Source: Parafrankia elaeagni
GTDB taxonomy: Bacteria > Actinomycetota > Actinomycetes > Frankiales > Frankiaceae
Direction: 5' to 3'
Assembly: GCF_000374165.1 (NCBI RefSeq)
Contig: NZ_KB893717.1
Span: 263,046 to 327,045 of the forward strand
Length of the DNA stretch: 64,000 nucleotides
A program made the position numbers and the translations under genes. Positions 20,400-38,264 of the stretch are shown one piece after another. Below the pieces are notes generated by a model, which ran no database searches, was not told where the DNA came from, and saw nothing but the letters and a program-made list of their open reading frames with translations. Within the stretch, counting starts at the first letter, position 1; every line of letters starts with the position of its first letter.

Positions 20400-22611
<2,212 letters not shown>

Positions 22612-22747: not shown

Positions 22748-24100
22748 TCAGGATCGGTAGTAGCGGCGTTTCGGGTCTCGCGGGCCGGCGCCCACCTCGC
22801 GGACCAGTCCGCGTTCGACCAACTTGATGAGCCGGGTCCGCGTCGCCCTGGCGGACAGGTCGATGGCCCTGGCGATGGAGCTGGTGAGTGCGCCGTCGGC
22901 GGGGATGGCGGCGAGAATCTCCCGGTCCCTGGTGTCAAGGGGTGGCAGCCGGACCCGCTGGGTCCAGAGCGTGACGCGGAAGCGGCCGCCGATCTCCTCG
23001 AGATCTGGCGGGGGAAGACCGGCGTCCAGGCAGGCGGTGGTCATGCGCTGGATGCCACTGCCCCACTGCTCGATCAGCCCCAGTGAGTGGAAGACCCGGC
23101 CGATGACCCTGTTCCGCAGCTTGGAGACGCCGCGGCGGAGGTCGTCGACCGTCAGGCCGAACTGCAGCAGACCGGGATTCTCCACTTCGAGACGGTCGTC
23201 GAAGACCGCGATGCGGATGGGCGCTCCGCGTTGCCGGTAGTCGGCATGAGCCACCGCGTTGACGACTGCCTCCCGTACGGCGACGGGCGGCAGGTTCCAC
23301 CGATCGGTGCGTCGGACCGGGCCGATGTCGGCGCTGTACAGACTGTGCCTGCGCACGAAATCGAGGGCCTCCTCCACCCCGCGCACCAGGTTGGAACGGA
23401 TCTCGCGCTGATCGACGATCTCGGCCTTGTCTGCGCCGAGAAACCGTCCGGCCTGTATCCAGGCATCCGGCAGGAGGCGGCTGCGCTCCTGGTCGCGGCC
23501 GAACAGCAGAAGGCCTCCGACGGTGGGCACAAGCCGCCCCTGGTGCGGCGTCACCAACCGGAGGGTCTCCAGATCGGTGGGACGGAGCTCCCGGACCTGG
23601 CTGAACGCCTCGGTCGCGGCACCCAGATCGATCGCCTCGGCACCGATTTCAGGCATCGCCTGTTCGTCGTACGCTTCACCTCGCGCGTAGCGGCGCAGTT
23701 CTTCGACGAGATCGGGGTCGGCCCTCCGGTTGGTCGAGCCGACCCGGACGTAGACCCCGTTCTCCGGACCTTCCTGGCCGAGGTGGTGCGGTCGGGACGG
23801 ACTCGGATAGATCTGGACCGCGACGACCTGGGTGTTGCGCCATGACACGATCTCGATGTCGGGAACCAGGCGGGGCGCGATCGAGTCACTGATCAGGTTG
23901 GCCAGCCGTTCCTCGAGGTCCAGTGGTTCCGTCACCCCGCGGACGTGGCTTGTTCCGTCCTCGACTCCGATCAGCAGTACGCCTCCGGAGGTGTTGGCGA
24001 AGGCGACCAGACTCCGCAGCACACCGCGAGGTGACGACACGTCGCGCTTGAACTCGAGTGTCTTGCCCTCGGGCCGGGTCAGGAGATCCGCCAGATCCAC
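22748..24100 (-). CDS. AlbA-type ATP-binding transcriptional regulator (COG2865 family)
   Basis: 450 residues. Residues about 10-130 are a Schlafen/AlbA_2 DNA-binding domain (EGKTLEFKRD, FANTSGGVLLIGVEDG, VYVRVGSTNRRADP). A GHKL-like ATPase region follows (about 265-370; REAVVNAVAHADYRQRGAP, DDRLEVENPG, GSGIQRMTTAC). The C-terminus (about 395-450) is a winged helix (SSIARAIDLSARATRTRLIK). Such proteins are predicted transcription regulators. The GTG at 24100 has no ribosome-binding site, and TAGACT (minus strand, 24117-24112) sits 11 nt upstream, consistent with a leaderless message. CTCTGAAG repeats flank and overlap that region and may be its own operator. Confidence 0.82.
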   Translation of the reverse strand: MDLADLLTRPEGKTLEFKRDVSSPRGVLRSLVAFANTSGGVLLIGVEDGTSHVRGVTEPLDLEERLANLISDSIAPRLVPDIEIVSWRNTQVVAVQIYPSPSRPHHLGQEGPENGVYVRVGSTNRRADPDLVEELRRYARGEAYDEQAMPEIGAEAIDLGAATEAFSQVRELRPTDLETLRLVTPHQGRLVPTVGGLLLFGRDQERSRLLPDAWIQAGRFLGADKAEIVDQREIRSNLVRGVEEALDFVRRHSLYSADIGPVRRTDRWNLPPVAVREAVVNAVAHADYRQRGAPIRIAVFDDRLEVENPGLLQFGLTVDDLRRGVSKLRNRVIGRVFHSLGLIEQWGSGIQRMTTACLDAGLPPPDLEEIGGRFRVTLWTQRVRLPPLDTRDREILAAIPADGALTSSIARAIDLSARATRTRLIKLVERGLVREVGAGPRDPKRRYYRS

Positions 24101-24123
24101 AGCTCTGAAGTCTACTCTGAAGT
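24101..24123. promoter_or_regulatory. two direct CTCTGAAGT repeats at regulator start
   Basis: CTCTGAAGT at 24103-24111 and 24115-24123, 12 nt apart, directly in front of the GTG start of the AlbA-type regulator gene and overlapping its likely -10 sequence. A bound protein here would block transcription. Likely autoregulation, inferred from position and from the further copies at 24176-24224. Confidence 0.6.
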
Positions 24124-24175
24124 TTGATCTTTCTAGGGCGTCGGCAGGCGTCTGCCGTGCGCCTGTGGACGTCCG

Positions 24176-24224
24176 AGCTCTGAAGTGCTCTGAAGCCGAG
24201 CGCTTCAGAGTTCACTTCAGAGCT
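24176..24224. promoter_or_regulatory. large inverted repeat made of four CTCTGAAG units
   Basis: AGCTCTGAAGTGCTCTGAAG (24176-24195) is mirrored by its complement at 24203-24224, with a 2-nt insertion and a 7-nt centre. It overlaps the last codons and stop of the ligase gene. It may act as an operator for the regulator downstream, as a terminator for the ligase message, or both. The 11-mer AGCTCTGAAGT is identical to the one at 24101-24111. Confidence 0.65.
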
Positions 24225-25741
24225 TGCGCGGGCTGGAGCCGGCGCTTGTCCGGCTTTCCGCTGGGTGCCAGGGGGACCTCGTCGATCCTGGTGATCGTGG
24301 CGGGTGCGCAGTCGGCGCCGAGGTGGGCGGTGACCAGCGCCCGCAGTGCCGCGGGGTCGGGATCGCGGCCGGCCCCCGGCACGACGAAGGCGTGCACCGC
24401 CTCGCCGGTGTTCTCGTCGGGGGTGCCGACGACGTAGGCCTCGGCGACGTCGGGGTGGGTGGCGAGGACCCGTTCGATCGGCCCGGCGTAGTGCAGGCCG
24501 GCGTTGACGATGATGACGTCCCTCGTCCGCCCGGAGAGGTACAGGCGGCCGTCGGGGTCGAGGTGGCCGAGGTCGCGGGTGCGCACCCAGCCGTCCGTGA
24601 AGACCTCCGCGGTCTGCGCGGGGTCCGCCCAGTAGCCCACCGCCTGCGCCGGGGTGCGGACGAACAGCTCACCGGACTCCCCGGCGGGCAGCGGTGTGCC
24701 GTCGGAACCCCGCACCTGGACATCCACCGCCGTCGGCGGGAACCCGACCGAGCCGGGGACGTCGAACGGGGTGGCCATCGAGATCGTGCCGGCCTCGGTC
24801 TGGCCGTAGCCGTGGAAGACCACCGGGCCGAGCACGTCGAGCGCCTCGCGCAGCCGGGCGGGCTCCAGCGGCGAGCCGGAGACCATCAGGGCACGCAGCG
24901 TGCTCAGGTCGGCCGGCGCGCGCCGTTGGTCGGCGACGAGGCGGTACAGGCGGGCCACGGTCATCACGCTCACGGTCGCGCGGTGCCGCACGATCGCCTC
25001 GGGCATCGCCGGCTGGTCGGCGACGACCAGCGTGCCGCCCGCGGCGAGGGTCAGCACGCCGTACTCCATCATCACCTGGCTGCCCAGCGACCCGAAGACG
25101 AGGAAGCGCTGGAGCCGGGAGGCCAGTTCGCGGATCGCGGGCGGCCACGCCGCCGGCCGCGCCGTCCAGGCGGCACCCAGCGCGGCGTAGGTCTGCGCGC
25201 ACGCCTTCGGAACGCCGGTACTGCCGCTCGTGTGGATGAGCCTCGCAATGTCGCCGGGCCGCCCGGAGAGCTGTACCGAGGCGGCGTTCTCGCCCCCGTC
25301 CGTGCCGGTGGACAGCAGTTCGGCAACGGTGAGCTGGGCGACCGTGCTGGTGGTCGGGCTGCTGGTGGCCGGGCTGTCGGCGACCGGTCTGTCGGAGACG
25401 ACGGCTGCGATGTCCTGGCCGAGGATGTGCCGCAGCTGGCCGTCCGGCAGCCCGGCGCGTACGCCGACGACCCGGGCACCGACGACATGACCGGCGAGGA
25501 TCGTCGCGAACGCCTCGGGATTCACCCAGAGCAGCAGCGCCAGGCCGTCGCCGGGGCGCACTCCCGCGCGCCGCAGCCCGGAGGAGATCCGCCGGATGAG
25601 GCCGAGCATCTCCGCTCCGGTGACGACACGGGCGCCGTGCTCGAAGACGGGACGCTCCCCGGCCTCCTCCAGCAGTTCCAGGACCGGTCGCGGATAGGCG
25701 TCCGGTGCGGTGCGGGTGAACGGGTCAGCCGGCGTCGGCAA
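24212..25741 (-). CDS. AMP-forming acyl/aryl-CoA ligase (ANL superfamily)
   Basis: 509 residues. Core motifs are intact: phosphate loop LIHTSGSTGVPKAC, HGYGQTEAGTIS, the hinge-region LYLSGRTRDVIIVNAGLHYA and the catalytic lysine in APSGKPDKRRL near the C-terminus. There is no carrier-protein domain, so the product is probably a CoA thioester or an acyl group passed to a partner in trans. A TTG at 25741, with AAGGA 5 nt upstream, overlaps the end of the upstream flavoprotein gene by 17 nt, so the two are coupled. With the ammonia-lyase nearby, a cinnamate or coumarate-type acid is a reasonable substrate, but this is inference. Confidence 0.87.
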   Translation of the reverse strand: MPTPADPFTRTAPDAYPRPVLELLEEAGERPVFEHGARVVTGAEMLGLIRRISSGLRRAGVRPGDGLALLLWVNPEAFATILAGHVVGARVVGVRAGLPDGQLRHILGQDIAAVVSDRPVADSPATSSPTTSTVAQLTVAELLSTGTDGGENAASVQLSGRPGDIARLIHTSGSTGVPKACAQTYAALGAAWTARPAAWPPAIRELASRLQRFLVFGSLGSQVMMEYGVLTLAAGGTLVVADQPAMPEAIVRHRATVSVMTVARLYRLVADQRRAPADLSTLRALMVSGSPLEPARLREALDVLGPVVFHGYGQTEAGTISMATPFDVPGSVGFPPTAVDVQVRGSDGTPLPAGESGELFVRTPAQAVGYWADPAQTAEVFTDGWVRTRDLGHLDPDGRLYLSGRTRDVIIVNAGLHYAGPIERVLATHPDVAEAYVVGTPDENTGEAVHAFVVPGAGRDPDPAALRALVTAHLGADCAPATITRIDEVPLAPSGKPDKRRLQPAQALK

Positions 25742-27335
25742 GGCATTCCTTGAGGAAGGCGGCGAGAGGCTGCTGGTGCACCGCCGGCAGGTTCCACTCG
25801 TTCTCGAGGTTCTCGGCGAGGTGGTGGACGCCCGCCGCCTCACCGTCGACGTACCAGCGCACCACCGGGTGCAGGTAGCTGGCGTCGTGCGCGTTGGCCG
25901 CGTCGTTCTCGGCGACACGCGGCACGGAGATGTCGAACGGGTCGACGCTGTCGTGGTCGGGCCCGTATTCGAGCGTGACGACGAACATGTGCCGGGCGCC
26001 GCTCCCGCCCCCATGCCCGGAGCCCCCGGTGAGCCCGTCTCCGGCGAGCCTGTCTCCGGCGAGCCCGCCGCCGGTGGCGTACGGGACCGGGACCTCCTCG
26101 TGGTACAGCGCACGGGAGCCGTCCACCGTGACGACGTCGCCGATCACCCCGAACTGCTGCCACAGCGCGGACGAGCGGTTCACCCGGGCGATGATGGCGT
26201 CGCTGACGGTGTCCGCGGACGGATCGAGCGGCTCGGCCGGCCAGGGCGTGCCGTGATGGCGGGCGGCGAGAATCCGGTACAGCGCCCGGGTGCCGTAACG
26301 GAAACCGTGGATGAAGCCGCTGGTGGACCTTTTGAAGTCACGCTGCTGGGTGAGCGTGCCGGCGAAGTACAGGCCGGGAACGTTGGTCGACTCGTACGCC
26401 GCCGTCTGCTCGGGGAAGCGGTCGTTGATGACCAGGGTGGGGCGGCAGTCCTCGGCGAACACGGAGGAGTCGAAACGGAAGCCGGTGCAGGCGATCACCC
26501 GGTCGTAGAGGATCTCCCGCAGCGCCTCCACCGACCGGGCGTACCGGAACATCACCCGGTAGCGGCCGTCGGGAAGCCGCTCGATGCTCTCGACCGTGCC
26601 GTCGAGGACGGCGTTCTGGGACTTGAGCTGGTAGGTGTCGAGGAAGTTGTTGTTCACCGCGCGCAGGTGCCCCACATAGTGGGACTGCCAGGCGAGTCTG
26701 ATCGAGTGCGGCCCGGCGACGTGGATGACGGCCGCCGTCTCCACCAGCGCGTCCGCGGTCTCGAAACCCGAGTTCCCCTTGCCGATGATGAGCACCCGCT
26801 GGTCGACGAACGACTCCGGGTCGGTGTCGAAGGTGTCGTAGCGCTGGGCGGTCTCGATACCGGGAATGGGCGGGACGTGCAGCTGGGAGACGCCGGTGGC
26901 GACGACGAGCCGGCGGCACCGCCATTCCTGGCCGGTCTGGTCCACCGCGACGAAACCGTCGTCGTCCCGGGAGATCCGCACGATCTCGGTGTCGTAACGC
27001 ACCCGCGCCCCGGTCGCCGCGGCGAAGTCGGCCAGATAACGGATGAGATCCGCCGCCTGAGGGAAGTACCGTTTGCTGTACCGGGTGAACAGCAGCCCCG
27101 GGTCGTCGCTGAGCAGCGAGTTCCAGTCCATCCGCAGGCGCATTTCCGGGTCGTCGAGCCCGGTGTGCACCTTGTTGATGGAGATGAGTTGGCGGTGCCG
27201 GGGGTAGGTCTCGAAGAACGTGCCCGGGCCGGCTCCGCGTTCCAGAACGACATAGTCGTGACCACCGCGCTCCAACAAGGCGGCGAGCTGCAGCCCGGCT
27301 GGCCCCGAACCGATGATCAGGTAGTCGTGCCTCAT
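25725..27335 (-). CDS. FOXRED2-like FAD-dependent oxidoreductase (copy 1)
   Basis: 536 residues. The N-terminal FAD-binding motif is LIIGSGPAGLQLAAL and a second dinucleotide motif is IIGKGNSGFETADAL. The stretch TYPRHRQLISINKVHTG and the DWNSLLSDDP segment are characteristic of the FOXRED2-like group, related to flavin monooxygenases. The C-terminal part (about 400-536) is outside the FAD fold. It is about as long as, and clearly homologous to, the protein at 34712-36280. The ATG at 27335 has no ribosome-binding site; translation may start upstream or be leaderless. Its gene is divergent from the ammonia-lyase. Substrate unknown. Confidence 0.85.
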   Translation of the reverse strand: MRHDYLIIGSGPAGLQLAALLERGGHDYVVLERGAGPGTFFETYPRHRQLISINKVHTGLDDPEMRLRMDWNSLLSDDPGLLFTRYSKRYFPQAADLIRYLADFAAATGARVRYDTEIVRISRDDDGFVAVDQTGQEWRCRRLVVATGVSQLHVPPIPGIETAQRYDTFDTDPESFVDQRVLIIGKGNSGFETADALVETAAVIHVAGPHSIRLAWQSHYVGHLRAVNNNFLDTYQLKSQNAVLDGTVESIERLPDGRYRVMFRYARSVEALREILYDRVIACTGFRFDSSVFAEDCRPTLVINDRFPEQTAAYESTNVPGLYFAGTLTQQRDFKRSTSGFIHGFRYGTRALYRILAARHHGTPWPAEPLDPSADTVSDAIIARVNRSSALWQQFGVIGDVVTVDGSRALYHEEVPVPYATGGGLAGDRLAGDGLTGGSGHGGGSGARHMFVVTLEYGPDHDSVDPFDISVPRVAENDAANAHDASYLHPVVRWYVDGEAAGVHHLAENLENEWNLPAVHQQPLAAFLKECLADAG

Positions 27336-27359
27336 GGTGAGGGAAGGTACCGGGGCGAG

Positions 27360-27400
27360 TTCAGAACACTCTGAGAAACCGACCCTAGGGTCTTCAGGCG
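27360..27400. promoter_or_regulatory. divergent promoter region with palindromic CCCTAGGG
   Basis: CCCTAGGG at 27383-27390 supplies TAGGGT on both strands. On the plus strand TAGGGT (27386-27391) lies 8 nt before the GTG of the lyase gene, the spacing expected for a leaderless message. On the minus strand the same palindrome faces the flavoprotein gene. CTCTGAG with a mirrored TTCAGA lies at 27361-27376. Confidence 0.5.
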
Positions 27401-28890
27401 TGCTCGCCACCGAGAAGGTTGTTGATCTTTCCGTGCCGCTGTCAGGCCCGGACCTGGTCCGGGCCTGTGGGCCGCTGACGGTGCAGGTCGGCCCAGCGGT
27501 GCGCAGCGGGGTCGAGCGTGGCCGGCGCTTCCTGCACGAGGTGCTGCGGGAGGAGGACCGCCCCGTCTACGGAGCGACGACCGGCTTCGGGGCGCTGGTC
27601 GGGTTCGCCGGCCGGGCCGATGAGGCGGACCAGTGCGACAACACCCTGGCCCACCTCGGCGCCGGCCAGGGCCCGGACCTGCCCCCCGACATCGTGCGGG
27701 CGGCGCTGCTGGTCCGGGCCTGGTCGCTGGCCCAGGGCGCGTCCGGGGTGTCGGCGCACGTCGTCGACGGCCTCGCGGCGATGTTCGCGACGACCTTCGT
27801 GCCCGCCGTGCCGCGGTACGGCTCGGTCGGCGCGAGTGGGGACCTGATACCGCTCGCCTACGCGGCGCAGGCGCTGCGCGGCCGCGGCACGGCCTACCTC
27901 GACGGTCGGCGGATGCCGGCGGCGCAGGCCCTGGCGGACGCCGGGCTCGTCCCGCTCGCGCTCGACGGCCGGGACGCGCTGGCGCTGGTCAACGGGACGT
28001 CCCTGACCACGGCCGCGCTCGCGCTGGCGCTGGCCGGCGTCCGCGCGTCGCTGCGGGCGAGCGCGGCGCTCACCTGCCTGCTGGTCGACCTGCTCGGCGC
28101 CGACCCGCAGTTCCTCGACCCGCGCCTGATCGCCGCCTACGCCCATCCCGGCGCGGCGGCGGTCGCCGCGGACATGCGCCGGACGCTCGCGGGCGCCAGC
28201 CCCTCCGGCCAGCGGGCGCTGCAGGAGCCCTACAGCATCCGCTGCTCACCGCAGCTGCTGGGCGCCGCCGAGGACGCGCTGCGCTACGTCGACGGTGTCG
28301 TCGCGGCGGACCTGCGCAGCGTCAGCGACAACCCGCTGTTCTTCCCGGCGGACGACGCGGTCGTGCACGGCGGGAACTTCTTCGGGCAGCCGGCCGCGTT
28401 CGCCGCCGACGTCCTGGCGATGGTCACCGCCCAGCTCGGCAACCTGGTCGAGCGGCAGCTGGACCTGCTCGTCGACCCGACCCGCAACGGCGGCCTGCCG
28501 CCGATGCTCGCCGCGGGCCCCGGCCGCCAGCACGGTCTGCAGGGGGTGCAGCTGGCCACGACCGCGCTCGTCGCCGAGATCCGCCGGGCGGCGGTGCCTG
28601 CTGGCATGCAGAGCCTGCCGACCAACCTGCACAACCAGGACGTCGTGCCGTTCGGCACCCAGGCCGCGCTGCGGGCCCACGAGATGGCCGGGCTGCTGCG
28701 GCTGCTGTGCGGCTCGCTCGCCCTGGGGCTGCGGCAGGCGCCGCACGTGGGAGCCCGCCGTCCCACCGCCCCCGGGTGCGCCGCCGTCCTCGACGCGCTG
28801 ACGGAGGCGGTGCCGCCCGTCGATCCGGACCGCCCGCTGGACGGCGACGTCCGCACCGCCGCCGAGGTGATCGCTGCCATGACGTCCTGA
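27400..28890 (+). CDS. MIO-type aromatic amino acid ammonia-lyase (tyrosine-type selectivity)
   Basis: 496 residues, the usual bacterial HAL/TAL length. The MIO cofactor precursor Ala-Ser-Gly is at 145-147 (GSVGASGDLIPLAY); the catalytic Tyr is in PVYGATTGFG (57); the NQDVVPFGT and SDNPLFF motifs are intact. The selectivity position reads HL (85-86, NTLAHLGAG), as in tyrosine ammonia-lyases, rather than FL (phenylalanine) or SH (histidine). It should form p-coumarate from tyrosine, or act as a tyrosine aminomutase; these cannot be separated by eye. The GTG at 27400 has no ribosome-binding site and appears leaderless. Confidence 0.88.
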   Translation: MLATEKVVDLSVPLSGPDLVRACGPLTVQVGPAVRSGVERGRRFLHEVLREEDRPVYGATTGFGALVGFAGRADEADQCDNTLAHLGAGQGPDLPPDIVRAALLVRAWSLAQGASGVSAHVVDGLAAMFATTFVPAVPRYGSVGASGDLIPLAYAAQALRGRGTAYLDGRRMPAAQALADAGLVPLALDGRDALALVNGTSLTTAALALALAGVRASLRASAALTCLLVDLLGADPQFLDPRLIAAYAHPGAAAVAADMRRTLAGASPSGQRALQEPYSIRCSPQLLGAAEDALRYVDGVVAADLRSVSDNPLFFPADDAVVHGGNFFGQPAAFAADVLAMVTAQLGNLVERQLDLLVDPTRNGGLPPMLAAGPGRQHGLQGVQLATTALVAEIRRAAVPAGMQSLPTNLHNQDVVPFGTQAALRAHEMAGLLRLLCGSLALGLRQAPHVGARRPTAPGCAAVLDALTEAVPPVDPDRPLDGDVRTAAEVIAAMTS

Positions 28891-28966
28891 CGGGCCGGTC
28901 GGGACGGGCCGGTCGGGATGGGCCGGTCGGTCGGGATGGGTCAGTCGGGACGGGCCGGTCGGGGCG
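28891..28966. repeat. 14-nt GC-rich tandem repeat
   Basis: About five copies of a unit close to CGGGCCGGTCGGGA, with some CGGGAT and GGTCAG variants. It fills the gap between the convergent lyase and histidine-kinase genes. Confidence 0.8.
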
Positions 28967-28972
28967 GTGGCG

Positions 28973-30295
28973 CTATCTCGCGTTTCGCGGGCCCGCGACC
29001 GCGTCGGCCGGCTCCGGTAGCCGGTCGGTCGACTCCGGCAGCCGGAGGGTGAACGTGGCGCCCTGCCCGGGCCGCCCGACAGCCTCGATGGTGCCGCGGT
29101 GGCCCGCCACCACCTCGCGCATCAACGCCAGGCCGAGGCCCAGGCCGGCACGACGCTCCCGACCGCCGGGGCCTCGGTAGAAACGGTCGAAGAGCCGCTC
29201 GGCGGCGGCGGAGTCGAACCCGTCCCCGTTGTCGGCGACGGTCAGCTCGATCCATCTGCCCCGATGGGAGCGGCCGAGGGCCAGCACGATGCGCCCACCG
29301 GCCGGGGTGTGGTTGACCGCGTTGGTCAGCAGCTCGTCGACCGCGCGGCGCAGCGCCGAGGCGACGCCGTCGACGAACAGGGGCTCGGCGGGGCGTTGGA
29401 AGTCCAGCGTCACCTGCTGCTCGGCCAGCCGGTCGGCCTCTGCCGCCACGGCCGCGTCGACGACTCCGGCCAGGTCGACCGGCTCCCGGCGGGGTTCGGC
29501 CGCGCTGCCCACGAGGCGGGCTGACAGCAGCAGGTCGTCGACGACCTCGCCGAGCCTGCGCACGGTCGCCGCGAGCTGTTCCAGCCCGCGCAGATGGTCG
29601 GCCGGAAGCCCGCTGGCCGCCCCCCGCCGGATGAGGACCTGCACCCGGGTGTAGGCCACGGTGATGGGGGTGCGCAGCTCGTGGCTGGCATCGGTCACGA
29701 AGCGGCGTTGGGTGGCCAGTGCCTCGGCGAGCGGAGCGACCGCGTGGCGGCTCACGGCCACCCCCGCCGCGATCGCGACGACCACCGAGCCGGACGAGAC
29801 GACCAGCAGCGCGATCAGCAGGTGCCGGCGGTCGGAGAGCTGGTAGCGGGTGTCGAAGACAGCCTGGACGGCGCCGTCGCCGCGGGCCTGGGTGCGGACG
29901 ACGTACCTGGTCCCGTTGCGGCTCACGGCGCGTTCCGAGGGCGTGCCGGAGACGGCGGTGGCGTCCAGGTCGGCACGCAGCGGGAACCCGGGCGGGGCCG
30001 GCACCGGGCCGGCCGTGACCCGCGCGTCGTCGAGGGCGAACAGCCATGCGCAGACCGGAGGTGCCGTGGGCGTCCCGTAGCTGAGGGTGTAGCGCAGCTC
30101 CCGCTCGATCTGGTCGTTCTGCGCGTGCACCAGCACCGAGTACGCGACCCAGCTCACGAGCGCGACGAGCAGGGTGATCAGCACGCCGACCACGACCCCG
30201 ATGCGGAGTCTGGCCCGCCGCAGCACCGTCCGCTCGGCGGTGGCCCACGAGCCGCTCGGCTCGATCCACGAACCGCCGCCGCCTGGTCCGCTCAC
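28973..30295 (-). CDS. sensor histidine kinase (OmpR-type partner)
   Basis: 440 residues. Two membrane segments (about 31-53 and 158-182) enclose an exported domain of about 100 residues that would sense an unknown signal. A HAMP-like linker is followed by the dimerisation box TDASHELRTPI with the phospho-accepting His205. The ATPase domain keeps ELLTNAVNH, ADNGDGF and GLGLGLALMREV. Its GTG overlaps the stop of the response regulator gene as GTGA, so the pair is translated together. Confidence 0.93.
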   Translation of the reverse strand: MSGPGGGGSWIEPSGSWATAERTVLRRARLRIGVVVGVLITLLVALVSWVAYSVLVHAQNDQIERELRYTLSYGTPTAPPVCAWLFALDDARVTAGPVPAPPGFPLRADLDATAVSGTPSERAVSRNGTRYVVRTQARGDGAVQAVFDTRYQLSDRRHLLIALLVVSSGSVVVAIAAGVAVSRHAVAPLAEALATQRRFVTDASHELRTPITVAYTRVQVLIRRGAASGLPADHLRGLEQLAATVRRLGEVVDDLLLSARLVGSAAEPRREPVDLAGVVDAAVAAEADRLAEQQVTLDFQRPAEPLFVDGVASALRRAVDELLTNAVNHTPAGGRIVLALGRSHRGRWIELTVADNGDGFDSAAAERLFDRFYRGPGGRERRAGLGLGLALMREVVAGHRGTIEAVGRPGQGATFTLRLPESTDRLPEPADAVAGPRNAR

Positions 30296-30981
30296 AGCGC
30301 TCCGAGGCGGTAGCCGAGGCCGTGGATGGTGCGCACGACGGACCGGCCGAGCTTGCGGCGCAGGTAGTAGACGTAGGTGTCCACGATCGACGCCGCGGGG
30401 GCGTCCCGGAAGACGCGGCGGCGCAGCTCGGAGCGGGAGTGCACGGTGTTGGGCTGTTCGGCGAGCAGCCGCAGGAGCTCGAACTCGCGGGCCGAGAGCG
30501 CGACCCGGTCCCCGTCGGGGAGCGCGACGTCGCGCAGGCCGAGATCAAGGTGGGCCGAGCCGATGGGCAGCACCTCGGTCATGTCGAGGGTGCGCCGGCA
30601 CAGGGCCCTGATCCGGGCGCTCAGCTCGTCGAGGTCGAACGGCTTCACCAGGTAGTCGTCGGCTCCGGCGTCGAGGCCGTCGATCCGGTCGTGGACGGTG
30701 CCCAGCGCGGTCAGCAGGAGGGCGCGGGCGCGGACCGCGCGGGCGCGCAGCCGGACGAGCAGGTCGAGGCCGTCCAGGGCGGGCAGCCGGCGGTCGATGA
30801 CGACGACGTCGTACTCCCTGGTCAGCCCGAGGTGCAGGCCGCGCTGCCCGTCGTGGGCGACATCGACGTCGTAGCCCTCGACCCGCAGGGTGTCGGTGAG
30901 GAGGGCGACGAGTTCGTGGTCGTCCTCGACCAGAAGCAGTCGATAGGGGCCGGACGACCGCGACCTGACTGGGGCCCGCAC
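30292..30981 (-). CDS. OmpR-family response regulator
   Basis: 229 residues. The receiver domain has the acidic pocket VEDD (18-21), phospho-acceptor Asp63 in VVIDRRLPALDG and the conserved Lys in DDYLVKPFD. The C-terminal winged helix ends RKLGRSVVRTIHGLGYRLG. Directly upstream of its kinase gene in the same unit, and 49 nt after the antiporter gene on the same strand, it may be part of the long minus-strand operon of the metabolite locus and its likely controller. Confidence 0.94.
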   Translation of the reverse strand: MRAPVRSRSSGPYRLLLVEDDHELVALLTDTLRVEGYDVDVAHDGQRGLHLGLTREYDVVVIDRRLPALDGLDLLVRLRARAVRARALLLTALGTVHDRIDGLDAGADDYLVKPFDLDELSARIRALCRRTLDMTEVLPIGSAHLDLGLRDVALPDGDRVALSAREFELLRLLAEQPNTVHSRSELRRRVFRDAPAASIVDTYVYYLRRKLGRSVVRTIHGLGYRLGAL

Positions 30982-31030
30982 CCGCCAACCATCCCACGCG
31001 GGTGGCTGCCAGAAAAGTGACTGATTACCC

Positions 31031-32302
31031 TTATGCCCGCCCTTCCGGGACTATCCGGGCTGGTTGGGGGGCGGTGGCCCAGGCCCTCTCCCGGCGTTCG
31101 ACCAGTGTCAGCAGCGGCGTCGTCATCAACGTCGTCACCAGGGCGACGAGCACCAGTGCGGTGAACAGGGAGGGCGTCACGATGCCCTCCTCCAGACCGA
31201 CGTTCAGGGCGATGAGCTGCATCAGCCCGCGGGCGTTCATCAGTGCGCCGACCCGCAGCGCGACACCGTTCGGCTCGCCGCGCAGCCGGGCCGCGGCCCA
31301 GCACGCGCCGAACTTTCCGACGACAGCGACCACGACACATCCCACGGCGAAGAGCAGCACGGATCCGTCGCCGAGCAGGCCGAACTCGGTGCGCAGCCCG
31401 GAGTAGGTGAAGAACAACGGAAGAAAGATGTTCTGGGAGATCGGCGTCAGGGTGCCCGTGACCGCTTCCGCGCGCTCGTTGTGCGGCATGACCACGCCGA
31501 CCGCGAAGGCACCGAAAACCGCGTACAGACCAATCTCGTCCGTGTACCACGCGATGGCGAAGAGCAGCGCGACCGTGCCGAGCAGCTGCTCCTGGGGGCT
31601 GATCCGCGGATGCGTCAGCAGCAGGCGGGACAACGGCCGGGCGCCGAACCAGACGAGCACCACGAAGAACGCCGCTCCGACGAGCGTGACCAGCGCCGGG
31701 CCGAGCTCGCCGGACGCCACCGCAATGACGAACGCCAGCATGATCCAGGCCACCACGTCGTCGATCGCGCCGCTGGCCAGCGCGAGGGCGCCGTGCCGGG
31801 TACCGGCCTGCCCGCGCTCGGTGATGATCCGCGCCAGCATGGGGAAGGCGGTGATGGCCAGCGCCACCCCCACGAAGGCGGCCGTCACACCGGTCGGCAC
31901 GCCGTCCGCCCGGATCGGCACGTGCCCGCTCGTGGCGAGCACCAGCAGGGCGCCGAGCGCCAGCGGCGCGGTGACCCCGGCGAGCGAGACCGCGCCGGCG
32001 GTACCGAGGAGATTCGGCACCCGGTGGCGGGCGAACGCGTGGCCGGCCTGGAACATGAAGATCACCAGGCCGACCTGGCCGAGGATGTAGAGCACCGGGT
32101 AGAGCTCCCGGGGGAACAGCGCATCCTGCGCGTCGGGAAACAGCAGCCCGAACAGCGACGGCCCGAGCAGCACGCCGGCGAGCATCTCGCTCACCACCGC
32201 CGGCTGCCCGACCCTGCCCAGCGTCCACGCGACCAGCTTGCAGAACAGCAGGATCACGACCACGGCAATGAAGAACCGCGGCGCGAGCTCACTGGGAGTC
32301 AC
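31031..32302 (-). CDS. cation/proton antiporter (CPA2 type)
   Basis: 423 residues with about 12 hydrophobic segments and no cytoplasmic RCK domain. SGAIDDVVAWIMLAF contains the paired aspartates that carry ions in electrogenic members of the CPA2 family. The protein would exchange Na+ or K+ for H+ across the membrane. Antiporters of this type recur in actinobacterial natural-product clusters, where they may relate to export or self-protection. The GTG at 32302 has GGAGGT 8 nt upstream and lies 6 nt after the P450 stop, so the two genes are in one transcript. Confidence 0.9.
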   Translation of the reverse strand: MTPSELAPRFFIAVVVILLFCKLVAWTLGRVGQPAVVSEMLAGVLLGPSLFGLLFPDAQDALFPRELYPVLYILGQVGLVIFMFQAGHAFARHRVPNLLGTAGAVSLAGVTAPLALGALLVLATSGHVPIRADGVPTGVTAAFVGVALAITAFPMLARIITERGQAGTRHGALALASGAIDDVVAWIMLAFVIAVASGELGPALVTLVGAAFFVVLVWFGARPLSRLLLTHPRISPQEQLLGTVALLFAIAWYTDEIGLYAVFGAFAVGVVMPHNERAEAVTGTLTPISQNIFLPLFFTYSGLRTEFGLLGDGSVLLFAVGCVVVAVVGKFGACWAAARLRGEPNGVALRVGALMNARGLMQLIALNVGLEEGIVTPSLFTALVLVALVTTLMTTPLLTLVERRERAWATAPQPARIVPEGRA

Positions 32303-32308
32303 TGTCGG

Positions 32309-33628
32309 TTACCTCCGGGTGGTAGGAGATCCGAAATAGTTCGCGCACAGGCGCAGGCGGCGGGCATCGAGCACCATCACCGCACCGAAGAGGAGCTGGA
32401 GCACGCTGCGACCGGCGTCGGCCCAGCCGTCCCGCCGCCGCATCGCGCGCAGCCGGGCGGCTCCCGGCCCGGCCGCGGCTGGCGGCACCAGATAGCACGG
32501 TCCCCGGCTCGGCAGTGAGCGGGTGTGGTGCACGGTGGACGTCAGCGCGAAACGGCGCAGGACCTCCCGGGTGACCGCGCGCATCATCACCGGCGCGGCC
32601 CCCCGGGCCGGGCACGCTCGGTTGGCGGTCACCCCGAAGGGGATGAAGTGCGCCGCGCGCCGTTCGAGGGTGAACCAGCGGTCCGGGTCGAACGTGCCGT
32701 CGGCCGCCGGCCCGGTCCGCTGGTAGGCCAGGTAGTTGAACAGCAGCACCGATCCTGCCGGCAGCGTGACCTGGTCGTCGACCACGATCGGCGCGGTGGT
32801 GACGCGGTGGGCGACACCGAACAGCGGGTGGACCCGCAGCGTCTCGTCGATGACCCGGTCGAGCGCGTCGTCGTCGTCCAGGGCCTCGTGCAGGCGGCGC
32901 TGGACGTCCGGATGCTGCGCGAGGGCGAGGAGCAGATGGGCCATCGCCTCTGACATCTGCACGACCGCCGTGTTGAAGAAGGCGCCCTGCAGGTACCAGG
33001 CCGTCTCCTGGACGGTGAACGGCGCGGGCAGTGTCACCGGCACGGTGCCCGCCTCGATCCGGCCCGTCAGGTACCGGGTGAGCCGGTCGCGCCGGCGCAT
33101 GTGCCGCAGCGAGCAGCACTTCAGCGCCGTGACGACGTCGTCGGCGTTCGCGACGATCAGATCACGGACCTGCGGCGGGCATGGCTCGGCGAAGACCAGC
33201 TCGTAGTAGACCTCGGCCCAGACGGGCATCATCAGGTCACGTAGCCGGACCAGGCTGAGCCGGTCGACCGGCAGCGCGTCGAGCCGGCGGGCGGCCGCGT
33301 CCCGGGCCAGCTCGTAGGAGCGCTGCTGCGGCACGGCGAGGACCTGGCGGGTGACGCGCGCGACCGCCCGGTACCGCCCGCCTGGTTCGAGGTGTTCCTG
33401 GTGCATCTGCGGCCCGGGCGCCAACCAGTACCAGAACAGGTCGGACAGGCCCGCACCCTGGCTGCGGCCGTTCGCGGCCGGGTCGGCGTAGACGCGGTGG
33501 AAGTGCTCCGGCCCGACGAGCGGCCCCGGCACCGGGACGCCCTCCCCACCGTTCATGCGGGTGAACATCCACTCTCGGGCCCGCACCAGCAGCGCCGGCA
33601 GCGCGGCGGTGTGGGCGGGCAGGGTCAC
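32309..33628 (-). CDS. atypical cytochrome P450
   Basis: 439 residues. The ExxR motif is present (DETLRVHP, about 257) and the heme-ligand Cys is at about 339 in FGVTANRACPARG. In this loop the usual FGxGxRxCxG pattern is altered: Thr replaces the second Gly and Ala replaces the Gly after the Cys. The I-helix region reads GAFFNTAVVQMSEAM, without the normal acid-alcohol oxygen-activating pair. It may use an unusual chemistry or act on a carrier-bound or preoxidised substrate. The GTG at 33628 overlaps the previous stop as GTGA; a GTG at 33637 is an alternative. Confidence 0.85.
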   Translation of the reverse strand: MTLPAHTAALPALLVRAREWMFTRMNGGEGVPVPGPLVGPEHFHRVYADPAANGRSQGAGLSDLFWYWLAPGPQMHQEHLEPGGRYRAVARVTRQVLAVPQQRSYELARDAAARRLDALPVDRLSLVRLRDLMMPVWAEVYYELVFAEPCPPQVRDLIVANADDVVTALKCCSLRHMRRRDRLTRYLTGRIEAGTVPVTLPAPFTVQETAWYLQGAFFNTAVVQMSEAMAHLLLALAQHPDVQRRLHEALDDDDALDRVIDETLRVHPLFGVAHRVTTAPIVVDDQVTLPAGSVLLFNYLAYQRTGPAADGTFDPDRWFTLERRAAHFIPFGVTANRACPARGAAPVMMRAVTREVLRRFALTSTVHHTRSLPSRGPCYLVPPAAAGPGAARLRAMRRRDGWADAGRSVLQLLFGAVMVLDARRLRLCANYFGSPTTRR

Positions 33629-34704
33629 GGGTGGCACCAGTGGGCAGGTGCGACGAGATCAGGGGTCAGCGCGGACGGCCGGTCGGCACCGCACAGCGCC
33701 ATCGCCCGGTCGACGTCCTCGCGGAGCAGCTCCAGCACGGCCCGCGCGCCGTCCGTGCCGCCGGCGGCGAGTCCCCACACGACCGGTCGCCCGACCGCGA
33801 CAGCGCTCGCCCCGAGCGCGAGTGCGGTCACCACGTCGGTGCCACGCCGCACCCCACCGTCGAGCAGGACGGGCAGCCGCCCCGCCACCGCGTCGACCAC
33901 GGCGGGCAGCGCATCGAGGGTCGCCACGGCCCCGTCGAGCTGCCGTCCGCCGTGGTTCGAGACGACGATCCCGTCCACGCCGTGCTCGACGGCGAGCCTG
34001 GCGTCTGCCGGGTGGAGCACGCCTTTCAGGACGATCGGCAGCGGGGTCAGCGCACGCAGCCAGGCGACCGTGTCCCAGCCCAGCCCCGGGTCCCAGGCGA
34101 TCTCCCGAGGGTGGCCGGCCCCGGGCTCACGCATGTTCTCGCAGGCCAGCCCGTCCGGGAGGTCGAGAAAACCGTTACGCAGGTCCCGCTCGCGCCGGCC
34201 GAACACCGGGGAGTCGACGGTGACGACGAGCGTGCCGCAGCCGGCCGCCTCCACCCGCCGGACAAGCCGTTCGGTGAAGCTTCGGTCCGGCTGCGGGTAG
34301 AGCTGGAACCACAGCGGTGCGCCGGCCGCGGCGACCTCCTCGACCGGCTGGGTCGCCGCCATGCTCAGAATCATGATCGTTCCAGTGGCGGCGGCAGCCC
34401 TCGCGGTGCCGACCTCCCCGTCGGGATGAGCGAGCCGGTGGAACGCCGTCGGCGCGACCAGGACCGGGAAGGCCAGCCGCTGGCCGAGGAGTGTCACGCT
34501 CAGGTCGCGTTGCCCGGTGCCGTGCTGCCCGGTGCCGTGCTGCCCGGTGCCGCGCAGCACCCGGGGCCGCAGCCGGTGCCGGTCGAAGGCCGCGACGTTG
34601 GCCCGCAGGGTCCGCTCGTCGCCCGCGCCGCCGGCGAAGAAGTCGTAGTGCGCCGGGTCGAGCCGGGCTGCGGCCTTGTGCTCGATCTCCGTCAGGGTGA
34701 GCAC
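33625..34704 (-). CDS. FMN-dependent 2-hydroxy-acid oxidase/dehydrogenase
   Basis: 359 residues of the lactate/glycolate/mandelate oxidase family. The FMN TIM barrel shows VLVAPTAFHRLAHPDGE, WFQLYPQ, the substrate Lys in IVLKGVLH, the catalytic His in SNHGGRQLD (about 251) and the phosphate-binding LDGGVRRGTDVV. It would oxidise an alpha-hydroxy acid to the keto acid; hydroxymandelate is one candidate, since a mandelate-type oxidase serves hydroxyphenylglycine synthesis. A short GTGQH repeat sits near residue 52. Its stop overlaps the P450 start, and its start lies 7 nt after the upstream flavoprotein. Confidence 0.92.
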   Translation of the reverse strand: MLTLTEIEHKAAARLDPAHYDFFAGGAGDERTLRANVAAFDRHRLRPRVLRGTGQHGTGQHGTGQRDLSVTLLGQRLAFPVLVAPTAFHRLAHPDGEVGTARAAAATGTIMILSMAATQPVEEVAAAGAPLWFQLYPQPDRSFTERLVRRVEAAGCGTLVVTVDSPVFGRRERDLRNGFLDLPDGLACENMREPGAGHPREIAWDPGLGWDTVAWLRALTPLPIVLKGVLHPADARLAVEHGVDGIVVSNHGGRQLDGAVATLDALPAVVDAVAGRLPVLLDGGVRRGTDVVTALALGASAVAVGRPVVWGLAAGGTDGARAVLELLREDVDRAMALCGADRPSALTPDLVAPAHWCHP

Positions 34705-34711
34705 CGGGTGC

Positions 34712-36280
34712 TCAGCGGGCCAGGCAGCGGTCGATGAACGCGACCAGCGGTGCGCCGTGGACGTCCGGCCGGTCCCACTGGTTCTCCAGGTTCTCCGCCA
34801 GGTGGTGGACGGCGACGACCGCGCCGTCGCGGTGGTGGCGGACGACCGGGTGCAGGTACGCGGCGTCGTGCGCCTGCCCGGCCGCGTTCTGGGCGATGCG
34901 GCCCACGTTGATGTCGAACGGGTCGACCTTGTCGTGGTCCGGGCCGTACTCCAGCGTGACGACGAAGGCGTCCGTCACCTGATGGTCGTCGGTCGACAGC
35001 CCGACCCGGGCGAAGTAGTCGACCGGGACCTCCTCGTGGTAGCGGGCGTCCACCCCGCCGACGGTGACGACATCGGCGAGCACGCCGAACTGCTGCCACA
35101 GCGCGGAGGTCCGGTTGACCCGCGCGATGATGGCGTCGGCGACGGCCGTCGCGTCCACACTGATCTTCTCCACCGGCCACGGCACGTCGTGGTACCGCCG
35201 CTCGAGAATCCGGTGCAGCGCCCGGACGCTGTAGCGGAAGCCGTGGATGAAGCCGCCCGTCGACTTCTTGAAGTCCCGCACCTGGGACAGCGTGCCCGCG
35301 AAGTGGAGACCGGGGACGTTCACCGACTCCCACTCGTCGGTCTGCGCCGGGAACCTGTCCCGGATGACCAGCTCCGGTCGGCAGGTGTCGTCGAAGATGT
35401 CCGGGTCGAACCGGAAACCGGTGCACAGGATGATCCGGTCGTACCGGATGTCCTTCAGTACCTCGTTCACCCGGCTGAAGCTGAACGTGACCGTGAAGCC
35501 GTCGCCGTCCGGCTCGCGGCGGATCTCACGCACGTTGCCGTCGAGGATCGCGTTGGCGGACTTCAGCTGGTAGGTGTCGAGGAAGTTGTTGTTCACCGCC
35601 CGCAGGTGGCCGACGTAGTGGCTCTGCCAGGCCAGGCGGATCGAGCTCGGACCCGCCACGTGGATGAGTGTGGTCGTCTCCATCAGGTTGTCGGCCGTCT
35701 CGAAGGCCGAGTTCCCCTTGCCGATGATGAGGACCCGCTGGTCGGTGAAGTCGCGCGGATCCACCGAGACCTCGTCGTAGCTCTCGGCCGCCTCGATCCC
35801 CGGGATCGGCGGCAGGTACGGCCTGGAGACACCGGTCGCCACCACGAGCCGCCGGGCCCGGTAGGTCTCCCCGTTCGTGTCGGTGACCTCGAAGAACTCG
35901 CCGCGGTGCACGCGGGCGACCCGGGCGTTGTAGCGCACCCGCACTCCGGCGGCGGCGGCGAAGTCGGCCAGGTACCGGACCATGACGTCGGCGTCCGGAA
36001 AGTAGCGCTCGGTGTACGAGGTGAAAAGCGGGGTCCGGTCACCGAGGAGCGAGTTCCAGTCCAGGCGCAGGTTCAGCTCGGGGTCGGTGGACCCGGTGTG
36101 CGGCTTGTTGATCGAGATGAGCGTCCGGTGCCGTGGGAAGCGGGCGAAGAAGGAGCCGGGGGCGGGGGCGCCGTCGAGGACGAGATAGTCCCGTGTGCCG
36201 TCCTGCTCCAGAAAGGCGGCGAGTTGCAGCCCGGCCGGTCCCGCACCGATGATCAGCAAGTCCAGCGGTGTCCCAGTCAC
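34712..36280 (-). CDS. FOXRED2-like FAD-dependent oxidoreductase (copy 2)
   Basis: 522 residues. FAD motif LIIGAGPAGLQLAAF, second motif IIGKGNSAFETADN and the group signature FPRHRTLISINKPHTG. It shares long near-identical blocks with the copy at 25725-27335, for example IRLAWQSHYVGHLRAVNNNF. Both keep SALWQQFGV near the C-terminus. It heads the minus-strand genes for the hydroxy-acid oxidase, P450 and antiporter. Two non-identical copies flanking one locus suggest two separate oxidation steps, or a heterodimer. GTG at 36280 has no clear ribosome-binding site. Reaction unknown. Confidence 0.88.
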   Translation of the reverse strand: MTGTPLDLLIIGAGPAGLQLAAFLEQDGTRDYLVLDGAPAPGSFFARFPRHRTLISINKPHTGSTDPELNLRLDWNSLLGDRTPLFTSYTERYFPDADVMVRYLADFAAAAGVRVRYNARVARVHRGEFFEVTDTNGETYRARRLVVATGVSRPYLPPIPGIEAAESYDEVSVDPRDFTDQRVLIIGKGNSAFETADNLMETTTLIHVAGPSSIRLAWQSHYVGHLRAVNNNFLDTYQLKSANAILDGNVREIRREPDGDGFTVTFSFSRVNEVLKDIRYDRIILCTGFRFDPDIFDDTCRPELVIRDRFPAQTDEWESVNVPGLHFAGTLSQVRDFKKSTGGFIHGFRYSVRALHRILERRYHDVPWPVEKISVDATAVADAIIARVNRTSALWQQFGVLADVVTVGGVDARYHEEVPVDYFARVGLSTDDHQVTDAFVVTLEYGPDHDKVDPFDINVGRIAQNAAGQAHDAAYLHPVVRHHRDGAVVAVHHLAENLENQWDRPDVHGAPLVAFIDRCLAR

Positions 36281-36367
36281 GACACGACGGTAGATCGGTC
36301 AACTCAGAGAAATTTCAGTCCGTGCCCGGGGCCGGCCGACGACCTCCTCGGGCGGGGGAAAAGCAGA

Positions 36368-36451: not shown

Positions 36452-37819
36452 TCAGCGCAGCGGGCGGCTGGGGGCGGCCTGAGCGGCCTGGGCGGCGATG
36501 GGGTCGCTCTCGGAGTCCGTCGCCGTCGACCGGGCGTTCATCGGCACATACGGGCGCTCGTCGTAGCCGACGTACAGCTGCCGCGGGCGGGCGATCTTCT
36601 GCTCGGGGTCGAGCAGGCCCTCCTCCCACTGGGCCAGCCAGCCCGGCATCCGCCCGATCGCGAACAGCACCGGGAACATCTCGACCGGGAAGCCCATGGC
36701 CTGGTAGATGATGCCGGTGTAGAAGTCCACGTTCGGGTAGAGCTTCCGGGCGATGAAGTACTCGTCCTCGAGCGCGATCCGCTCCAGCTCCATCGCCAGG
36801 TCGAGCAGCGGGTTGGTGCCGGTGACCTTGAAGACCTCGTCGGCGACCTGGCGGATCACCCGGGCCCGCGGGTCGTAGTTCTTGTAGATCCGGTGGCCGA
36901 AGCCCATGAGCTTCTTCTTGCCGTCCTTGACCTGCGCGATGAAGGCCGGGATGTTCTCCACCGAGCCGATCTCGGAGAGCATGCGCAGGACCTGCTCGTT
37001 GGCGCCGCCGTGCAGCGGCCCGTAGAGCGCGGAGATCGCCGCGGCGGCGGCCGAGAACGGGTCGGCCTGCGAGCTGCCCACGGCGCGCATCGCGTTCGCG
37101 GAGCAGTTCTGCTCATGGTCGGCGTGCAGGATGAACAGAACGTCGAGGGCGTGCTCGAGGTTCGGGTCCGGCTCGTACTTGAGCTCGGTGGCCTTCCACA
37201 TCATGTTGAGGAAGTTGCCGGCGTACGAGAGATCGTTGTCCGGGTAGACGTACGGGAAGCCGACGGAGTGGCGGTAGGAGAACGCCGCCAGCGTCGTGAT
37301 CTTCGCGATCAGCCGGACGATCTGCAGCCGCCTCAGGCCCGGGTCGTCGATCGTCTTGGCGTCCGGGTAGAAGGTCGACAGCGCGCCGACGGTCGACACG
37401 AGCATGCCCATCGGGTGGGCGTCGTGGTGGAAGCCGTCGATGAACTTCTTGATCGACTCATGCACCAGGGTGTGGTGCGTGATCTCGTCTTCCCAGGTGG
37501 AGAGCTCGTCCGAGGTCGGGAGCTCGCCAGCCAGCAACAGGTAGGCGACCTCCAGGAAGCTGCTCTTCTCCGCCAGCTCCTGGATCGGGTAGCCGCGGTA
37601 GCGCAGGATGCCCGCGTCGCCGTCGATGTAGGTGATGGCGCTGCGACAGCTCGCCGTGTTGGTGAAGGCGGGGTCGTACGCCATGAGGCCGAAGTCGTCG
37701 TCGTCGACCTTGATGGCACGGAACGCACTCGAGCGGATCGTGCCGTCGGTGACCGGCACCTCGTACGTCCGACCGGTGCGGTTGTCTGTGACGGTCAGGG
37801 TACTGACCTGCTCGGACAC
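36452..37819 (-). CDS. gltA: citrate synthase, hexameric type
   Basis: 455 residues. Catalytic regions are ALYGPLHGGANEQVLRML (His), LMGFGHRIYKNYDPRARVIR (His and Arg) and NVDFYTGIIYQAMGFP (Asp). The N-terminal beta-rich domain (about 1-60) marks the long, type II form, probably the main TCA-cycle enzyme. The start GTG at 37819 has GGAG upstream. A strong hairpin follows the stop. It is unlinked to the shorter citrate synthase at 20400. Confidence 0.96.
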   Translation of the reverse strand: MSEQVSTLTVTDNRTGRTYEVPVTDGTIRSSAFRAIKVDDDDFGLMAYDPAFTNTASCRSAITYIDGDAGILRYRGYPIQELAEKSSFLEVAYLLLAGELPTSDELSTWEDEITHHTLVHESIKKFIDGFHHDAHPMGMLVSTVGALSTFYPDAKTIDDPGLRRLQIVRLIAKITTLAAFSYRHSVGFPYVYPDNDLSYAGNFLNMMWKATELKYEPDPNLEHALDVLFILHADHEQNCSANAMRAVGSSQADPFSAAAAAISALYGPLHGGANEQVLRMLSEIGSVENIPAFIAQVKDGKKKLMGFGHRIYKNYDPRARVIRQVADEVFKVTGTNPLLDLAMELERIALEDEYFIARKLYPNVDFYTGIIYQAMGFPVEMFPVLFAIGRMPGWLAQWEEGLLDPEQKIARPRQLYVGYDERPYVPMNARSTATDSESDPIAAQAAQAAPSRPLR

Positions 37820-38264
37820 GCCGGGCTCCTCTCGCCATGGCACTGCCGGGTGACGGCGTCGGCCACCTCCGGGCGCGCGCCCGGGTTCGGAGCGCTCTCG
37901 CCGGTTCACTGGTCTGGTTCGGTTGTCCCCAAGTCTCGCGGTTCGAGCCACGACATGCGCGTGATCGGTGGCGTCTGTCCCACGTGTGCTGTGCCACCCT
38001 GTATGTCGACGGGCTCAGAGTGGCGCGCGGGCTGATGCGCCTGGTAAGGGTCTGCCCGATTTGGGTGTCCTGGGGCGGTTGGGCCACCGGCCCGTGCTCC
38101 TGTGTGGGGCTGCCGTCGTCCGGCCCGGTCGCCGCCCAGGCGGTGGTTTGGCGAGATTGGTCACACCGGCGAGGGGTCGGTTCCCGCGCGTCGCGACCGC
38201 CTGATCGCGCCGCGCGGGGGACCTGCCTCTGCCGCGGTCCCGGGGCTCCTGGCCCCGACGCCGG
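37820..38264. other. intergenic region upstream of gltA
   Basis: Both flanking genes are on the minus strand, so this carries the gltA promoter and the 3' end of the substrate-binding protein gene. GGTTCGAGCC near 37940 resembles a tRNA T-arm, but no full cloverleaf surrounds it. Nothing else recognised. Confidence 0.45.

Follow-up and report, generated by a model that had tools for sequence, protein, structure and literature searches.

In bagremycin and ferroverdin formation, p-coumarate is supplied by a tyrosine ammonia-lyase (TAL) in an actinobacterium (excerpt of PMC6692506), and the naringenin genes of Streptomyces clavuligerus represent a bacterial p-coumarate route (excerpt of PMC4640377). 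The locus described here lies in a window of 64 kb (the whole stretch of DNA analysed; 72.7% GC) from contig NZ_KB893717.1 of Parafrankia elaeagni, in which a block of nine genes (24212-36280) stands intact between serC (21373-22611) and the citrate synthase gene gltA (36452-37951). Like the Sam8/Sam7 branch of the saccharomicin pathway, where a TAL and a ligase lead to a hydroxycinnamoyl amide, the block pairs an aromatic amino acid lyase with a ligase. It is made up of two modules, A and B, and in the genomes searched module A depends on module B. Taken as a whole, the block is probably a co-regulated cassette of two modules for the biosynthesis of a specialised metabolite, derived from tyrosine and made without a carrier protein. 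No description of such a cluster was found in the literature, a search that covered open-licence papers only and whose negative outcome is weak evidence.

Gene content and organization

Module A consists of an ammonia-lyase with a 4-methylideneimidazole-5-one cofactor (MIO), a flavoprotein (FOX1) and an AMP ligase; module B holds a second flavoprotein (FOX2), an FMN-dependent 2-hydroxy-acid oxidase, an atypical cytochrome P450, an antiporter and a two-component pair. None of the nine genes contains an internal stop:

24212-25741, minus strand: LIG, AMP-forming (ANL) ligase, module A; 509 amino acids (aa) if TTG 25741 is the start, as predicted; Pfam AMP-binding and C domain
25725-27335, minus strand: FOX1, FAD/NAD(P) flavoprotein, module A; 536 aa from ATG 27335; Pyr_redox_3
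27400-28890, plus strand: MIO, tyrosine-type aromatic amino acid ammonia-lyase, module A; 496 aa from GTG 27400; Lyase_aromatic, 446 bits
28973-30295, minus strand: HK, sensor histidine kinase; HisKA and HATPase_c
30292-30981, minus strand: RR, OmpR-type response regulator; Response_reg and Trans_reg_C
31031-32302, minus strand: CPA, cation/proton antiporter; Na_H_Exchanger, with the TIGR00932 CPA2 model below cut-off
32309-33637, minus strand: P450, module B, a cytochrome P450 of atypical kind; residues 220-367 match Pfam p450 weakly (57.5 bits)
33625-34704, minus strand: FMN, FMN-dependent 2-hydroxy-acid oxidase family, module B; FMN_dh, 429 bits
34712-36280, minus strand: FOX2, FAD/NAD(P) flavoprotein, module B; Pyr_redox_3 and an AlphaFold2 (AF2) model

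On the minus strand the order of transcription is FOX2, FMN oxidase, P450, antiporter, response regulator and kinase. MIO, the only block gene of the plus strand, runs towards the kinase gene and away from FOX1 and the ligase gene.

The original prediction, made from the sequence alone, had proposed a single block of ten genes. All ten open reading frames (ORFs) are present with the domains it named, and Pfam scans recovered the AMP-binding, two Pyr_redox_3, aromatic lyase, HisKA/HATPase_c, Trans_reg_C regulator, Na_H_Exchanger, P450 and FMN_dh domains. Nine of the genes cohere and are conserved together; the tenth, encoding an AlbA_2 protein, is excluded (see below), and instead of one operon the nine divide into two modules, each with a promoter. 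The absence of polyketide synthase (PKS) and nonribosomal peptide synthetase (NRPS) modules was borne out, as no ketosynthase, condensation or carrier domain was found in Pfam scans of the block. The overlapping starts that had been taken as operon signs are genuine for RR/HK (4 nt) and FMN/P450 (13 nt), and the spacing on either side of the P450 and FMN genes is 6-7 nt. The overlap of the FOX1 and MIO starts is probably an artefact of start choice. With the starts at ATG 27335 and GTG 27400, a short divergent promoter remains between them, containing a candidate operator at 27361-27375. The ligase ORF that begins at 26113 carries a spurious N-terminal extension over FOX1, TTG 25741 being the likely start. 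The prediction had not foreseen that the block is modular, that A depends on B, that the promoters have an operator half-site in common or that the block has decayed in sister genomes.

Occurrence of the modules and dependence of A on B

An alignment search of a genome collection with the two flavoproteins gave 424 relatives, from which 77 distinct loci were kept. Since the loci were picked by FOX similarity, frequencies among the 77 are not population frequencies. Both modules (lyase plus P450) are present in 44 of the fetched loci, module B only in 24, and module A only in nine. The genes occur together across many genera, more than by chance, and not in this strain only. FOX, FMN and P450 genes are consecutive and on one strand in all 69 loci with a P450 (68 fetched plus the window); in L092, which came from a separate search, the P450 is beside FOX on the opposite strand. 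The modules were found in several linked arrangements, and also apart, and the gene order of the window recurs in only one fetched locus (L004, Phytohabitans maris, 60-85% protein identity).

The dependence of module A on module B was seen when 394 genomes of the class, among them that of the window, were sampled with a lyase threshold of E<=1e-120. The P450 is present in 13 of these genomes, with FOX within about 1.3 kb in each. The lyase is present in nine, and in seven it is beside FOX (the window's and six others at 74-83% identity); all seven also hold the P450. In two of these seven (G051, G185) the modules lie on different contigs or 3.7 Mb apart. The remaining two lyases (G053, G363; 60-61% identity) are in genomes without FOX at E<=1e-100. 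The co-occurrence has a hypergeometric probability of 6e-12, a figure that ignores relatedness. Likewise, there are nine fetched loci with module A only, and after leaving out L052, all eight searchable genomes hold the P450 elsewhere. That the two modules are unrelated operons, adjacent by chance, would accord with their being apart in several genomes; it is nevertheless extremely unlikely, as A was never seen without B (7/7, 8/8) and the promoters of both have a half-site in common.

A simple GC-frame call of ORFs of at least 60 aa showed no further gene family recurring in over 10 of the 78 loci, so no conserved hydratase, thiolase or ring-cleavage set accompanies the block. This bears on the rival reading of the block as an operon that breaks down or detoxifies aromatic acids, since its lyase, acyl-activating enzyme and oxidases might also degrade tyrosine or hydroxycinnamates. 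Given the lack of such conserved genes, and a cassette that is rare in the class sample and decaying in sister genomes, we regard this role as very unlikely. Homologous neighbourhoods in unrelated catabolic operons were not encountered either: the annotated flanks have no catabolic context, most flanks being unannotated.

Some individual loci are worth recording. The only non-actinobacterial title among the 77 is Paraburkholderia acidicola (L048), where a Haem_oxygenas_2 gene (iron-containing redox enzyme, 15051-16109) follows module B. In L044 and L064 (JOAA, titled Rhodococcus rhodnii NRRL B-16535) module B adjoins ruvCAB, and the flanking families are common to the Kibdelosporangium locus L035; the JOAA record is probably mislabelled. 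In the G363 genome, locus L091 (1890-10154) has the lyase of 60-61% identity beside a P450, a ketosynthase, an AMP ligase and a major facilitator superfamily transporter, and is possibly another p-coumarate cluster. Neighbourhoods of lyase relatives without FOX gave no clue to function. FOX relatives at 43-45% (L085-L087, L089) share neighbour families, identified in L085/L086 as GCS2, SnoaL-like and CMD, again with no functional clue. In the plasmid collection there was one close FOX record, on a replicon of 11.9 Mb in Nonomuraea gerenzanensis.

A rejected alternative is a ribosomally synthesized and post-translationally modified peptide (RiPP) locus: there is no further recurrent gene among the ORFs of at least 60 aa searched, intergenic space for a precursor is scarce, and the only NCBIfam match of the P450, ApyO, is far below cut-off.

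Promoters and candidate operators

The regulatory features recognised are:

27336-27399, no strand: divergent FOX1/MIO promoter, predicted from the choice of starts
27361-27375, no strand: operator candidate, inverted repeat TCAGA-N4-TCTGAG, supported by module A promoter counts against background
36303-36318, minus strand: operator candidate, 11-bp direct repeat CTGA-N7-CTGAG, upstream of FOX2, supported by module B promoter counts

The inverted repeat TCAGA-N4-TCTGA is present in 46 of 52 module A promoters, compared with 7 of 8269 background windows (220-bp windows in the same loci), and the 11-bp direct repeat CTGA-N7-CTGA in 22 of 74 upstream regions of module B FOX genes, compared with 25 of 8269. 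Crossed forms also occur, the inverted repeat in 5/74 B regions and the direct repeat in 5/52 A regions. A strict hexamer pair was counted in 19/52 A and 4/74 B promoters vs 5/8365 in the background. The inverted site in the window is the only perfect one in the genome, and the direct repeat is the only perfect match in the window. A 7-mer comparison of the promoters was dominated by GC-rich words.

Many module B loci have a searched gene just upstream in the same direction (39/74: 25 MIO, 12 LIG, one HK, and gltA in the window). Among the other 35 loci, either repeat is found in 13 of 16 with RR and in 2 of 19 without it (Fisher 3e-5), where RR was taken as present if it matched at >55% identity within the fetched stretch, the stretches of L074 and L079 being incomplete. 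Loci L004 and L046 were scored as misses, and their printed sequences show near matches. A direct repeat with an 11-bp period suits an OmpR-type regulator, and the kinase/regulator pair may control both promoters through repeats of a TCTGAG half-site, with binding of the regulator predicted from the sequence pattern.

Enzymes of module A

The lyase is the sole match of its family in the genome. Its MIO triad (ASGD) and a tyrosine-type His-Leu pair (in NTLAHLG) are present in all 55 block lyases. The pair aligns with the selectivity pair of the Rhodobacter TAL (2o6y), and was also aligned with 2o78, which carries Phe at that His. None of the NCBIfam cut-offs is reached (score/cut-off: equivalogs HutH 361.6/539.15, tyrosine 2,3-aminomutase 267.1/501 and FlxA 247/700; exception model BagA/FevW 242.5/1000), so its substrate is a prediction. 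Release of p-coumarate from L-Tyr is the best inference. Alternatively, the enzyme could be a tyrosine 2,3-aminomutase, with module A supplying beta-tyrosine and the ligase activating that beta-amino acid. In favour of this, both enzyme types carry MIO on the same fold, the PDB matches include tyrosine aminomutases, and the TIGR03832 model gives a hit that stays under its cut-off. However, a probable histidine ammonia-lyase and a TAL are slightly higher in the PDB and the HutH models are also higher, and although these differences are not decisive, we consider an aminomutase unlikely.

The ligase retains the ANL domains and the catalytic lysine, as do McbA and ShABS, which is how its five nearest PDB sequences read. 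The scores range from 233 to 191 bits for McbA/ShABS, followed by the feruloyl (169), FadD8 (142) and 4-coumarate (110) CoA ligases. Entries 6h1b and 8ppp were identified by their K-to-A and K-to-H changes (PMC6282839, PMC10804368), the chain names in the PDB being different and the codes absent from the available portions of the papers' texts. Several loci with module B only have a ligase paralogue of 44-50% identity.

Enzymes of module B and the FOX family

FOX1 and FOX2, putatively FOXRED2-like in the original prediction, are 64% identical, and belong to a family of two-domain FAD/NAD(P) flavoproteins with the signature NNN.LD.YQLK in 127/127 sequences. Two familiar classes were rejected for them. 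The FxGxxxHxxx[WFY] fingerprint of a canonical group B flavin monooxygenase (FMO) occurs in 0/127, and the CxxC and CxxxxC motifs of a thioredoxin/disulfide reductase likewise in 0/127 each. The AF2 model of FOX2 has a mean predicted local distance difference test score (pLDDT) of 81.7, and its nearest folds are YpdA and bacterial FMO. The FMN oxidase has a conserved HGGR motif in an alignment of 51, and its relatives in the PDB begin with lactate, hydroxyacid and glycolate oxidases, followed by 4-hydroxymandelate oxidase.

The P450 model (AF2, mean pLDDT 82.6) matches P450 folds, and the heme-ligating Cys is in an NR.CPA loop in 74/74. Neither the canonical Cys loop ending C-x-G nor the acid-Thr motif of the I-helix was found in any of the 74, and for these reasons the enzyme is termed atypical. 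Many of its relatives start with a hydrophobic stretch followed by LPxWLP, resembling a membrane anchor, which the window copy lacks as called.

The antiporter was detected in 60 of the 69 module B loci, and not in L015, L023, L026, L031, L046, L060, L062, L066 and L074, where a diverged copy could escape. Its frequency, and the hydrophobic start of several P450 relatives, would fit a membrane or cation-stress regulon, in which the two-component pair and antiporter are central and the enzymes make a membrane-bound protectant. This too appears unlikely, given that the antiporter is undetected in 9/69 loci, while the FOX-FMN-P450 series is unbroken in all 69.

Evolution of the block and its decay in the genus

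No FOX match at E<=1e-60 turned up in the 35 other genomes of the order. In G017 the same site has only fragments, covering aa 287-504 of the ligase (interrupted by gaps) and aa 210-310 of the FMN gene product; in G022 the antiporter (aa 1-187) is directly beside gltA at a contig end, with no FOX2, FMN or P450 between them. Judging by these remnants, the block goes further back in the genus, and its decay has taken at least two different courses.

Trees were quick searches with support from the Shimodaira-Hasegawa-like approximate likelihood ratio test (SH-aLRT) only, and gave long-branch warnings. FOX sequences of module A fall into a single clade (SH-aLRT 100), which tentatively nests inside module B sequences, with or without the long-branched L092, the outgroup being distant. 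In the window, FOX1 and the ligase fall in a module A clade of 23 rows with Nonomuraea, Saccharothrix and others, and FOX2 and P450 pair with Phytohabitans, then with Micromonosporaceae; the lyase tree is unresolved there. These differing placements suggest that the modules re-assort. Rows labelled B in the ligase tree (L010, L031, L034, L037) fall with module A, as the label derives from the missing FOX1 neighbour.

On the serC side of the block is the gene that the original prediction had counted as its regulator:

22748-24100, minus strand: AlbA_2/HATPase_c_4 protein, not in the block, a separate insertion; absent at the site in G017 and G019

As a pathway regulator it was rejected. In the two sister genomes the ligase-end sequence is 13 (G017) and about 68 (G019) bases from serC with no such gene between, and no match is listed across the 77 loci. 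Just upstream of its start lie CTCTGAAG repeats (24101-24126), and the ligase gene has at its end an inverted repeat (24176-24224) that both sisters partly keep. One solved relative of the protein was found at E<=0.001 (3lmm). An anti-phage defence system was also rejected: PADLOC gave only partial, weak matches on the nine block genes (RR 1.5e-5, FOX1 4e-4), and partial matches down to 5.8e-13 for the separate AlbA_2 gene. Beyond gltA, two tandem Peripla_BP_6 binding-protein genes (38265-41065) have matching sequence in G017 up to the contig end, and none at that place in G018-G021.

Proposed pathway

The conservation of the gene set, the dependence of A on B, the shared half-site and the key residues were computed here; substrates, order of steps, product and binding by the regulator are predictions built upon them. 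In the biosynthetic cassette that we favour, the MIO lyase would deaminate L-tyrosine to p-coumarate, which is the most likely entry compound. The ligase would then form an acyl-adenylate and hand the acyl group to a nucleophile, an amine or CoA, without a carrier protein, and the FOX flavoproteins, the FMN 2-hydroxy-acid oxidase and the P450 would oxidise the product, which could be a p-coumaroyl derivative in oxidised form, perhaps an amide. The steps after p-coumarate are guesses. The antiporter would serve transport or self-protection, and the kinase/regulator pair would switch both promoters by way of the half-site repeats. Module B (FOX-FMN-P450, usually the antiporter, and in several loci its own ligase) would be the wider core; module A may have arisen once, probably when a core-type FOX and ligase joined a lyase, and would depend on B. 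The order from Tyr to p-coumarate, activation and several oxidations had been put forward in the original prediction; the tyrosine-type lyase, the ligase and the several oxidases agree with it, and it is still the best inference. Because of the gene content, the dependence, the shared half-site and the patchy survival, a specialised-metabolite pathway fits better than catabolism.

Several observations weigh against this pathway. The lyase scores best, though below cut-off, with histidine ammonia-lyase models. In our own reading of the ligase alignment, McbA residues F241, W246, E400 and Y402 are replaced, that is, at least four of the amine-tunnel residues. The amine-tunnel residues of amide bond synthetases are those named in the available portion of PMC10804368. 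For this reason the ligase is called related to amide bond synthetases, and not one of them. Loci L010, L034 and L037 have lyase and ligase without FOX1, so FOX1 is not always needed. The P450 is without a lyase in 6 of 13 class genomes, and 17 of the 24 genomes of B-only loci have no lyase match (E<=1e-120), two of the matches in the other seven being just about 60% identical. Module B thus occurs without A, so that tyrosine cannot be the precursor everywhere; where B stands alone, a different acid must take its place. In the genus, the window's genome is the only one of seven with an intact block. As for the promoters, 52 of 74 in module B lack the strict direct repeat, which a co-directional upstream gene explains in part only; with one mismatch allowed, the direct repeat in the window is no rarer than in shuffles; and the pattern was picked by eye from promoter sequences, then counted with a background.

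A bolder reading, possible but rather doubtful, is that the block represents a new class of carrier-free tyrosine metabolite and a re-assortable two-module regulon, with the FOX-FMN oxidase-P450 core as a new oxidative machine. Here H2O2 from the hydroxy-acid oxidase, or electrons from FOX, would drive the P450, which has neither the usual I-helix acid nor a conserved ferredoxin gene beside it. The locus as a whole points to an uncharacterised metabolite family in many actinobacteria, invisible to searches for PKS/NRPS modules. The two-component system and two candidate operators offer an experimental handle, and the unbroken trio (69/69 loci) with its atypical P450 offers new oxidative enzymology. 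One cassette dependent on another, and sometimes unlinked from it, is a test case for modular pathway building in bacteria.

Comparison with known systems

Among flavoproteins, FOX is closest in fold to bacterial FMO (4a9w) and YpdA (7a7b), from which it differs in having no FMO fingerprint or CxxC and about 155 extra C-terminal residues. For the P450 model, P450BSbeta, a CYP152 peroxygenase, accounts for seven of the top 10 Foldseek rows (four entries, TM-score about 0.55-0.60), with OleT lower; identity to P450BSbeta is 16-18%, and the scores of other P450 classes are nearly as high. Among proteins of solved structure, the block ligase is closest to the amide bond synthetases McbA (Marinactinospora) and ShABS (Streptoalloteichus), from which it differs in its acceptor pocket; the block has no McbB/McbC-like partner. 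The naringenin genes of Streptomyces clavuligerus include a P450, as the block does, and differ in that chalcone synthase was not found in the block by Pfam scans. To our knowledge, the saccharomicin branch is without an FMN oxidase, FOX or antiporter, and the other genes of the bagremycin/ferroverdin cluster are not in the block. The block lyase reaches only 242.5 against the BagA/FevW cut-off of 1000, and the likeness to bagremycin and ferroverdin would be that of an actinobacterial tyrosine lyase feeding p-coumarate into the pathway.

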